From Holdemanella sp. (GTDB taxonomy: Bacteria > Bacillota_I > Bacilli_A > Erysipelotrichales > Erysipelotrichaceae), in the NCBI GenBank assembly GCA_021442845.1, contig JABUSD010000216.1:1-14132 (forward strand): a stretch of DNA of 14,132 nt, in the 5' to 3' direction. The position numbers were made by a program, and so were the translations under genes. Positions 927 to 14,022 of the stretch are shown in pieces. The notes under the pieces were generated by a model. That model searched no databases, had not been told where the DNA came from, and was given only the letters and a program-made list of their open reading frames with translations. The first letter of the stretch is position 1, and each line of letters starts with the position of its first letter.

Positions 927-933
927 TATCTAA

Positions 934-1026
934 ACAAAAGAGAGTAGTTAAAGAATAGATGAACGTCATCACAGCTTATAAGCTCGGCTCTATTCGTCAT
1001 GAAAATGATCAACAAGACTTTTGTCC
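934..1026 (+). promoter_or_regulatory. yybP-ykoY family (Mn2+) riboswitch aptamer
   Basis: The leader matches the yybP-ykoY class as I remember its consensus. An AAAAGAGAGTAG block (936-947) corresponds to AAAGGGGAGUAG, a CGTCATCAC block lies at 964-972, CGGC lies at 985-988, and AACAAGACTTTTGTCC (1011-1026) corresponds to the conserved 3' end. The helices fit: P1 934-940 with 1018-1024 (7 bp, perfect), P2 953-959 with 989-995 (7 bp), P3 973-976 with 981-984 (TATA loop), and P4 996-1000 with 1005-1009 closed by a GAAA tetraloop (one G-U pair). P1 has A-U pairs where the remembered consensus has G-C, which fits covariation. The family binds Mn2+ and usually switches genes on. It overlaps the terminator at 1014-1048. 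Confidence 0.85.
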
Positions 1027-1048
1027 TATCTGGATGGAAGTCTTTTTT
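1014..1048 (+). terminator. Riboswitch expression platform: leader terminator
   Basis: AAGACTT (1014-1020) pairs with AAGTCTT (1038-1044). The stem is extended inward by three G-U pairs and TCC/GGA (1024-1026 with 1032-1034), and a run of six T ends at 1048. Its 5' arm includes 1018-1024, the 3' strand of aptamer helix P1, so aptamer and terminator exclude each other. Mn2+ binding should stabilise P1 and allow read-through: an ON transcriptional switch. Confidence 0.8.
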
Positions 1049-1089
1049 CATACAGATAGATCAATTAGAAAGAACAGGAGGTAAATAGT

Positions 1090-2067
1090 ATGCGTTTTTT
1101 TCTAATTCCATTATTTTTTATTATTGTGATTGTATTGGTAATTTCATTCTTAGCAAGCATGCTTCGAATTGTACGAGAATCTGAAGCATATGTCGTTGAA
1201 CGTCTAGGTTCTTACCATGCAACATGGAACACTGGTTTCCACTTTAAAGCTCCTTTTATTGATCGAATTGCAGAAGTTGTCACATTGAAAGAAATTGTAG
1301 CGGATTTTGAACCACAGCCAGTTATCACAAAAGACAATGTTACCATGCAGATTGATACCGTTGTGTATTTAAAGGTAACAGAACCAAAGCTATATGCTTA
1401 TGGTGTTGTCAATCCAATGCGTGCTTTGGAAAACTTAACCGCTACAACATTAAGAAATATCATTGGTGATTTAGAGTTAGACCAGACATTAACATCAAGA
1501 GATGTCATCAATGCGGAAATGCGAAACATTTTAGATGTTGCCACAGATCCATGGGGAATTAAAGTAACACGTGTTGAATTAAAGAACATCCTTCCACCAA
1601 AGGATATTCAGGAAGCCATGGAAAAACAGATGCGTGCAGAACGTAATCGTCGTGAAACAATTCTGGAAGCAGAAGGACACAAACAAGCCATCATCACTCG
1701 TAAAGAGGGGGATAAGCAAGCTATGATTCTGGAAGCAGAAGCAGCCAAAGCCGTAAAGATTGCCCAGGCAGAAGCCGAAGCTAAATCCATTCAATTAGTC
1801 AATGAAGCAACCGCAAAAGGTTTACAGATGATTATTGATGTTGCAGGTAAAGATGGACTTCTAGTGTTAAAACAATTAGAATCCCTTGAAAAGGTAGCCA
1901 ATGGGAATTCCACTAAGTTAATCATTCCTAGCCAGTTAACAGAAAGCACTTCTGGTTTAGTATCAACCGCAACACTTCTTAAAGAAGGATTTACAGATGC
2001 CAGCCTTAAGTTAGAACAGCCACCGCTTCCAGAAGAAGATCCTTGTTGTGATAAACCACTGAAATAA
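1090..2067 (+). CDS. SPFH/Band 7 (stomatin/prohibitin-like) membrane protein
   Basis: A 325-residue membrane-scaffold protein of the SPFH superfamily (QmcA/stomatin-like). An N-terminal hydrophobic anchor (about 2-25) is followed by the Band 7 domain (about 28-190, opening VRESEAYVVERLGSYH). A long Ala/Glu-rich coiled coil (about 185-245, many EAE/AEA units) then drives oligomerisation in this family, and the C-terminal tail is acidic and Pro-rich and ends with a Cys pair (PCC). Length is normal for the family. The start is fixed by AGGAGGT at 1076-1082, 7 bases before ATG. Family members form ring or cage assemblies in the inner membrane and often regulate membrane proteases; an NfeD partner is common, but none is encoded in this window. 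It is monocistronic, with promoter, Mn2+-type riboswitch and terminator of its own. The link to manganese is inferred from the leader. Confidence 0.92.
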   Translation: MRFFLIPLFFIIVIVLVISFLASMLRIVRESEAYVVERLGSYHATWNTGFHFKAPFIDRIAEVVTLKEIVADFEPQPVITKDNVTMQIDTVVYLKVTEPKLYAYGVVNPMRALENLTATTLRNIIGDLELDQTLTSRDVINAEMRNILDVATDPWGIKVTRVELKNILPPKDIQEAMEKQMRAERNRRETILEAEGHKQAIITRKEGDKQAMILEAEAAKAVKIAQAEAEAKSIQLVNEATAKGLQMIIDVAGKDGLLVLKQLESLEKVANGNSTKLIIPSQLTESTSGLVSTATLLKEGFTDASLKLEQPPLPEEDPCCDKPLK

Positions 2068-12673: not shown

Positions 12674-12694
12674 TGTAATTTGGAGGATTGTATT

Positions 12695-13396
12695 ATGAAT
12701 GGTGGTTATTTCATATTTGGTGCTGTTGTTTTATTTGTTATTGCGATTATCATAACGAGAAAACAGACAGCCAAATATAATTATCAAAAAGAATATGCGG
12801 AATGCTATAACTTATTATTAAGCAACAAGAACATCTCAAAACGATTAGAAAGCAGAATCGAACAATGCGAAAAACAAAAGAATCATGAATATTCAACAAA
12901 GTTTGCTATTTTAAAGCTCTATCAGGACTGTAAAGAAAATAGATCTATTACATATTCTATGAATAAAATTAAAATAGATAGTTTATTATTCAAGAATGGT
13001 AAATTTGATAAATCCATGGTTTCTTTCAATGGAGATGCCTTGTATTTCCTATGTGTTGATTTAGTATCTTTAAAAAAGAACAAACATAGTAAAGAAATGG
13101 ATCTATTATCCAAGGATTTAAATACATATGCAGAACAATTGCATATGTATTTAGAATTCCATTTGTTTAATCTTGTATATAATGCATTAAAAGAAAAAAA
13201 ATTCAGTGAAGAATTCTATAATCTATTAATTAATGAGAAGAATACACAGTATAATAAAGATGTATTGGAAATCTACCAGGGTACAGCTTTATTAATAAAG
13301 AAGTATACAAGAAATCCATTATCATCCGATGAAAAAGAAAAAGCTGATCACTTTGCAAAGACAGTAATAGGAAGAAAGATAGTTGATAATCTATGA
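12695..13396 (+). CDS. Membrane-anchored protein of unknown function
   Basis: 233 residues from ATG 12695, chosen because GGAGG (12682-12686) lies 8 bases before it; an in-frame TTG at 12680 overlaps that site and is rejected. One N-terminal hydrophobic segment (about residues 4-21), then a basic stop-transfer (TRKQTAKYNYQKEY) and a soluble, Lys/Glu/Tyr-rich, mostly helical domain of about 200 residues, probably cytoplasmic. I recognise no family. Its TGA stop overlaps the next start as ATGA, so the two proteins are made together and may interact. It is very AT-rich and contains no apparent frameshift. Confidence 0.8.
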   Translation: MNGGYFIFGAVVLFVIAIIITRKQTAKYNYQKEYAECYNLLLSNKNISKRLESRIEQCEKQKNHEYSTKFAILKLYQDCKENRSITYSMNKIKIDSLLFKNGKFDKSMVSFNGDALYFLCVDLVSLKKNKHSKEMDLLSKDLNTYAEQLHMYLEFHLFNLVYNALKEKKFSEEFYNLLINEKNTQYNKDVLEIYQGTALLIKKYTRNPLSSDEKEKADHFAKTVIGRKIVDNL

Positions 13397-14022
13397 TTGA
13401 TAAAATAAAAAAAGCAAATCATATTGTATTTCTAACCGGATATGAAATAAGTGCCTATAGCAATTTTCCAGATATAAGGAAAAGTACTTATATGATCCAT
13501 GATTTCTATATACAGAAACCAGAAGAATTCTTTACATATCTAAGAACAGAAGTTGTTAATAGATACTATGTTCCAAATATCATCCATCAGTTTATAGCCA
13601 AATTACAGATAGAAAAAGATGTTACGGTCATCACAGAAAATGTAGATGGATTGCATAAAAAAGCAGGAAGTATGAACTGTATAGAATTATATGGTTCTAT
13701 TGAAGAAAACATCTGTCAATCCTGTTTCAAAGAATATAGTGCTAATACAATTTTATATTCAAAGAATAGACCAACATGTTCCTGTAAAGGATTTATTAAA
13801 CCATCTATTACATTAAGTGGTGAACCAGTAAATGGAGAAAAGGTTATGGAAGCAGTAAATGCACTATTAGTTGCAGATTTACTAATCATAGTCGGATCTA
13901 ATCTATCCATTCACCCTACGCCTTATCTTCTACAGTTCTATCATGGTAATAACATCATTACATTAAACAATAGCACACATAACCTAGAAGATTTATTCAA
14001 AGACCTTTATGAGAAAATATAG
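13393..14022 (+). CDS. Sirtuin-fold (Sir2-like) protein with altered active site
   Basis: 209 residues, shorter than the usual 230-250. The sirtuin order is recognisable: FLTGYEIS (13-20) for the family TGAGIS, SNFPDIR (23-29) for SGIPDFR, ITENVDGLHKKAGS (80-93) for TQNIDGLHxxAG, IELYGS (97-102) for IELHGS, Cys pairs C108/C111 and C129/C131 (CxC instead of CxxC), LSGE (141-144) for FGE, and IIVGSNLSIHP for GTSLxVxP. The catalytic His is Tyr (Y100), and the Gln of TQN is Glu (E82). Normal NAD-dependent deacetylase activity is therefore doubtful; an NAD or ADP-ribose sensor, or another activity, is possible. It overlaps the upstream gene by 4 bases and has no good ribosome site of its own. Confidence 0.8.
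   Translation: MIDKIKKANHIVFLTGYEISAYSNFPDIRKSTYMIHDFYIQKPEEFFTYLRTEVVNRYYVPNIIHQFIAKLQIEKDVTVITENVDGLHKKAGSMNCIELYGSIEENICQSCFKEYSANTILYSKNRPTCSCKGFIKPSITLSGEPVNGEKVMEAVNALLVADLLIIVGSNLSIHPTPYLLQFYHGNNIITLNNSTHNLEDLFKDLYEKI

Follow-up and report, generated by a model that had tools for sequence, protein, structure and literature searches.

In the Mn2+-type riboswitch of L. lactis, Mn2+ stabilizes helix P1.1, the 3′ strand of which otherwise joins a terminator (described in a section of PMC11087558), and the N7 of an invariant adenosine in loop L3 (A41 in L. lactis, A48 in X. oryzae) contacts the metal (as set out in passages of PMC6754395). Proteins of the SPFH/Band 7 type meet manganese export in B. 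subtilis: the TerC proteins MeeF and MeeY, which have manganese efflux activity, co-purified with a set of proteins that included FloA and FloT; meeY is under a manganese riboswitch, and FtsH becomes essential when MeeF and MeeY are both absent (passages of PMC10550928). In E. coli, qmcA and the iron exporter operon fetAB are divergently arranged, and overexpression of qmcA gave no tolerance in the assay reported in the relevant section of PMC10874397. These published facts on FloA/FloT with MeeF/MeeY and on qmcA with fetAB make a link between SPFH proteins and manganese plausible. Among the matches listed from the open-licence PMC literature, none joins a yybP-ykoY riboswitch to an SPFH-type protein, which does not establish absence from print; the closest of them is PMC10550928, in parts of which flotillins co-purify with a riboswitch-controlled TerC protein. 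The terms 'band 7', 'prohibitin' and 'nfeD' do not occur in the main text of PMC3766115, a survey that includes the yybP-ykoY motif.

Here we analyze a leader upstream of an SPFH gene in Holdemanella sp., located in a stretch of 14,132 bases (the window). The original prediction was that the leader is a manganese riboswitch with the SPFH gene as its only target. We consider it probable that the leader is a divergent yybP-ykoY Mn2+ riboswitch that switches transcription ON and drives a lone SPFH gene, with Mn2+ as the presumed ligand, ON as the predicted direction and a proposed physiological role under manganese excess.

Locus Architecture

The features of the locus, all on the + strand, are as follows.

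899–904 and 921–926, + strand: sigma-70-type promoter, TTGACA and TATTAT with a 16-nt spacer and TG before the −10 (extended −10); 11/12 in a consensus scan
934–1024, + strand: putative Mn2+-type (yybP-ykoY) riboswitch aptamer, P2-less variant; matched at 933–1024 by lineage model R1 (see below)
934–940/1018–1024, + strand: P1.1 switch helix, 5′ strand ACAAAAG; 7/7 standard pairs
941–946, + strand: L1, AGAGTA; family consensus GGAGTA
947–949/1011–1013, + strand: P1.2, GTT/AAC; 3/3 pairs, and the helix covaries in family alignments
953–959/989–995, + strand: P3.1, GAATAGA/TCTATTC; 7/7 standard pairs
963–973, + strand: L3, ACGTCATCACA, opposite 984–987 (TCGG)
973–976/981–984, + strand: P3.2 hairpin, AGCTTATAAGCT; 4/4 standard pairs
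997–1000/1005–1008, + strand: P4, TCAT-GAAA-ATGA with a GAAA loop; 4/4 pairs, pairing probability 0.95–0.97
1014–1026/1032–1044, + strand: intrinsic terminator with T1043–1048; terminator scan, hairpin −15.2 kcal/mol
1090–2067, + strand: SPFH/Band 7 gene, QmcA/stomatin-like, 325 aa; Pfam PF01145, 1.3e-40
2075–2115, + strand: terminator-like hairpin 3′ of the SPFH gene, −15.4 kcal/mol, followed by a T run

The leader spans 934–1048, and P1.1, which begins at its 5′ end, lies approximately where transcription from the strong promoter at 899–926 is expected to start, as had been predicted. Translation of the SPFH gene is served by a Shine-Dalgarno sequence (AGGAGG from 1076) ahead of an ATG at 1090. 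The open reading frame taken as the next gene (2237–2623, EIIA-man) lies on the opposite strand; this and the hairpin at 2075–2115 make the SPFH gene look like the sole target, so that this part of the prediction was borne out. The predicted mutual exclusion of helix and terminator also held: P1.1 and the 5′ arm of the terminator both use 1018–1024, therefore either structure excludes the other. This sharing of seven bases parallels the published L. lactis mechanism. At the far end of the window, a SIR2-family protein (PF02146) is encoded at 13393–14022, beside an open reading frame at 12680–13396. Because the window comes from a draft assembly (430 contigs, 90.41% complete, 4.99% estimated contamination), its placement in the genus is somewhat doubtful; the RNA-gene pair itself is unaffected.

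The SPFH protein matches PF01145 (Band_7) at 139.7 bits against a cut-off of 23.6, and among proteins of solved structure its closest relative is E. coli QmcA (8z5g, 1e-55, residues 9–300 of 325). The NCBIfam equivalog cut-offs for HflK/HflC were not reached (TIGR01933, 122.2 vs. 159.4; TIGR01932, 59.9 vs. 134.4). An SPFH gene is present in four of the five genomes of the genus, and an NfeD partner was found in none of the five.

Assignment to the yybP-ykoY Class

The Rfam model of the class, RF00080, gave no match across the window at its gathering score, within 850–1150 at E ≤ 10, or anywhere in the window's genome at E ≤ 0.001. A score below threshold runs against the original prediction, yet at the curated threshold RF00080 also finds nothing in any of the 140 genomes of the window's family; the model detects the class poorly in this lineage, where its test has little power, and since no family genome passes the cut-off the miss is not taken as a refutation. 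Full consensus was seen at 21 of the 26 sub-threshold RF00080 places inspected (32 rows, 30 of them with loci; four matches of 21–35 bases omitted). Twenty such places, counted after omission of L116, which is near-identical to L115, and of the five without full consensus, precede mntP-like (13) or P-type-ATPase-like (7) genes; these exporter targets were named by eye from N-termini, with Pfam run on samples only and a Mntp search of the genus. Surveys based on Rfam may undercount manganese riboswitches, as the RF00080 threshold can miss those of a whole lineage.

A covariance model of the lineage, R1, was trained on 17 riboswitches from other genera, located upstream of mntP-like or P-type-ATPase-like genes and with none from the window's genus. 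With filters off, R1 scored window positions 933–1024 at 33.4 bits vs. 9.6 bits for the runner-up in the 14,132 bases; the E-value of the match is 4.7e-7, a figure that is rough for lineage models of this kind. A second model, R2, gave 42.5 bits, but its training includes the window. Across the five genomes of the genus, with 150 first-look candidates scored per genome, R1 found 11 matches from 64.9 bits down to the 33.4 bits of the window; below 33 bits there were one at 23.1 (L159, at a contig end, with L1 and L3 kept and the GAGAC block missing) and five at 13.7–14.8. At E ≤ 0.01, R1 has matches in 99 of the 140 genomes of the family; for R2 at E ≤ 0.001 the figure is 260 of the 315 genomes of the order.

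The structure of the model shows covariation in alignments of the family. In alignment A2 (33 rows), 18 of 19 pairs have double-sided changes and none of 500 shuffles attained the covariation score; alignment A4 (60 chosen loci, 59 distinct rows) behaved likewise, with 3 of 500 shuffles reaching the count of double-change pairs, although the fitting of both alignments to the model tilts them towards its structure. RNAalifold on alignment A1 (n = 17; L122, L138 and L141, near relatives of retained rows, omitted) returned P1.1 and P1.2 only. A snoRNA match on the other strand (16.9 bits vs. a cut-off of 44) was rejected.

The assignment of the leader to the yybP-ykoY class, as a transcriptional ON switch, is thus supported on two counts, an independent covariance model of the lineage and a match helix by helix. 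Judged by its sequence, the leader is very probably a real, divergent Mn2+-type riboswitch. That it is an ordinary leader and terminator with a chance resemblance to the class is close to refuted, since the missing RF00080 match and a folding z-score of only −1.65 are set against the gap between the window and its runner-up under a model never trained on the genus, and against the lesser matches in the five genomes, which apart from L159 do not rise above 14.8 bits.

Aptamer Anatomy and Its Deviations

In the window RNA, L1 reads AGAGUA: AGUA is retained and the initial G is replaced by A941, a position that is G in 59 of 60 aligned members. Helix P2, present in 58 of the 60, is missing, and an internal loop (TGA/C) separates P3.1 from L3. 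L3, ACGTCATCACA, was aligned by eye with TCGTCATCACG and CCGTCATCACG of L115 and L120, the covariance model's own alignment having gaps there; L115 is a P-type-ATPase-like leader. In this by-eye alignment A968 matches the invariant Mn-binding adenosine of the L. lactis and X. oryzae riboswitches.

These deviations could mark decay: a descendant of a Mn2+ riboswitch, copied for example from an exporter gene, would have lost Mn2+ binding and now act as a constitutive attenuator before the SPFH gene. Although A941, the lost P2 and the looped P3 fit such a history, as do an R1 score that is second-lowest among the 33 aligned members and an aptamer fold that is not the thermodynamic optimum (see below), all of the remaining helices can form, including the GAAA-capped P4 and the 7-bp P1.1, the invariant A968 is kept, and the terminator and its overlap with P1.1 are exact. 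Moreover, another member, L275, is likewise without P2 but retains L1, an L3 block and P3.1 (the last as judged by eye), so that loss of P2 need not imply decay; L275 stands before a deoxyribosyltransferase-like gene in a genome of the family of L006 (see below). On balance we regard decay as unlikely.

Less likely still, and in our judgment improbable, is that the leader is a yybP-type variant sensing another divalent metal, to which the SPFH gene would respond. The A941 change does sit in L1, one of the two loops of the metal site, and a review states in one of its sections that certain yybP variants are probably sensors of divalent ions other than Mn2+, by which unusual target genes would be explained (PMC7266159); however, the L3 block is kept, as is the Mn-discriminating A968, and the same genome has a canonical-looking Mn2+-type riboswitch (L149) and also an mntP gene. 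The divergent Mn2+ riboswitch is the preferred reading; if it is functional, its P2-less aptamer would mean that the four-way junction is not essential.

Folding and Proposed Switching

When the whole leader was folded without metal, the terminator state reached −33.0 kcal/mol vs. −29.6 kcal/mol when P1.1, P3.1 and P4 were set as constraints, with P1.2 left open; the greater stability of the terminator state fits a default OFF. In the truncated RNA, pairing probabilities were 0.80–0.98 for P1.1 and 0.95–0.97 for P4, with 0.00 for P1.2, 0.02–0.03 for P3.1 and 0.19–0.22 for P3.2, and the aptamer as drawn (−9.9 kcal/mol) lay 7.5 kcal/mol above the optimum (−17.4 kcal/mol). Folding weighs little either way, because several members at exporter genes also fold poorly (P3.1 = 0.00 in L118 and L155).

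The DNA itself shows the sequence, the helices as potential pairings, the overlap of P1.1 with the terminator and the order of the genes; Mn2+ binding, switching and any role in manganese tolerance are inferred, along the following lines. Without metal, 1014–1044 would form the terminator and transcription would end near 1048. Mn2+ bound in the L1–L3 site around A968 would hold P1.1 (934–940/1018–1024), which would block the terminator and allow transcription of the single downstream QmcA-type SPFH gene; the SPFH cage would probably act in membrane quality control or exporter scaffolding under manganese excess. The arrangement suggests that output of the SPFH protein goes up at high manganese in Holdemanella sp. 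A Mn2+ switch with an SPFH gene as its only target would give a specific condition for testing SPFH function.

Distribution and History of the Pairing

Conservation of the leader upstream of SPFH homologs, which the original prediction would lead one to look for, is weak. SPFH matches at E ≤ 1e-60 occur in 262 of 315 order genomes, and 177 SPFH upstream regions (33 + 80 + 64, the 64 being part of a set of 77 sources; mostly 1,000–1,500 bases, a few shorter) were scanned, the first 113 with R1, 111 of these (100 + 11) also with R2, and the last 64 with R2 alone. The RNA was found upstream of two of the 177 genes, those of the window (genome G000) and of genome G002, and the other 175 were without it; R2, which includes the window and G002, added no SPFH case. 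The two cases are both in the genus, where the RNA thus lies directly upstream of SPFH in two of the four genomes that bear the gene, with 33.8 bits for the RNA directly ahead of the G002 gene. Among the best 80 homologs in genome contigs, which partly overlap the 177, L006 alone has the RNA, not directly upstream. There the riboswitch (54.4 bits) lies upstream of NfeD-SPFH, and L006 was not counted as a third SPFH case: a four-codon mini-ORF and, by eye, a possible promoter intervene. The order riboswitch, four-codon ORF, NfeD, SPFH (L006, 2308–2954) represents either a lost target gene or real control of NfeD-SPFH. A further candidate, L024 (16.8 bits), overlaps the SPFH start, was not found by R2 and was rejected.

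In the SPFH tree, the proteins of G001, G002 and G004 form a clade (support 100/100), and the window's protein lies outside it on a long branch. An exclusive sister relationship of the window and G002 proteins was rejected (AU p 0.00019) and a genus-wide SPFH clade was not (p 0.378), both groupings having been named after the tree was seen. Over 277 residues the SPFH proteins of G004 and G002 share 95.7% identity; G004 also has upstream DNA in common with G002, and it lacks the RNA. As the SPFH proteins of the two cases are not exclusive sisters and the near relative G004 is without the RNA, and as two gains require fewer steps than a single gain followed by two losses, two independent recruitments are the simplest reading; this is our own parsimony on few taxa and not proof.

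A broader proposal can be advanced only tentatively, and we lean against it as a whole: that the QmcA-type SPFH genes of one genus acquired Mn2+ riboswitches in two or more independent events, in one case with a P2-less aptamer built on a three-way junction, that SPFH cages would be a genuine arm of the response to manganese excess, for instance by guarding the translocon or FtsH or by scaffolding exporters, and that P2 would be dispensable for Mn2+ sensing.

Other Mn2+-Type Riboswitches in the Lineage

Elsewhere in the genus and in the family, the riboswitches precede MntP, Na/Ca-exchanger-type and P-type ATPase genes; targets in the genus also comprise mntP together with an exchanger-like gene, and exchanger-type genes alone (L151, Pfam PF01699; L155, by eye). 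The window's genome has two R1 matches besides the SPFH leader. L149 (55.1 bits) lies at a contig end, and it and the mntP gene at the start of another contig may be neighbors. L152 (G000:C147, 1599–1501, minus strand; 40.2 bits) has a terminator and lies directly before a 45-aa His-rich open reading frame with one hydrophobic stretch and no Pfam match at E ≤ 0.01, which from its sequence is a candidate manganese-controlled small membrane protein.

Also in the genus, L145 (G003:C102, 1501–1586; 64.9 bits) lies directly before a TetR-type regulator. Mn2+-type riboswitches are rare in the family of L006 (4 of 98 genomes at E ≤ 0.01). L273, L274 and L275 precede genes unlike transporters, one of them the deoxyribosyltransferase-like gene behind the P2-less aptamer; the other two targets had no Pfam match in their first 80 residues. 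In G001 (L083, contig C3), a gene above the NCBIfam cut-off for a putative Mn-dependent inorganic diphosphatase (NF011443, 338 vs. 335) precedes the SPFH gene by 13 bases, an adjacency that offers a thin independent link to manganese.

Comparison with Known Systems

The G002 SPFH leader (L084, 1839–1941) matches RF02617 SSRC10 (Streptococcus sRNA 10, filed as an sRNA) at 36.5 bits, below the threshold of 56, and this model is not among the matches listed for the window at E ≤ 10; the Streptococcus 'sRNA' may itself be a Mn2+ riboswitch leader. Compared with known SPFH proteins of the QmcA/stomatin type, that of the window is encoded behind a predicted metal riboswitch, in a genus without a detected NfeD. 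The window leader shares its architecture and expression platform with the mntP, Na/Ca-exchanger-type and P-type ATPase leaders of the family and genus, but those have targets of exporter type and, in nearly all aligned members, P2. In comparison with the yybP-ykoY class as defined by RF00080, the absence of P2 turns the four-way junction into a three-way junction, A replaces the first G of L1, a loop lies between P3.1 and L3, the target is an SPFH gene and the score is sub-threshold. Like RF00080 and the L. lactis yoaB and X. oryzae structures, however, the window leader has the AGUA of L1, the invariant A of L3 and helices P1.1, P1.2, P3 and P4, and, as in the class to which those structures belong, its P1.1 competes with the terminator.
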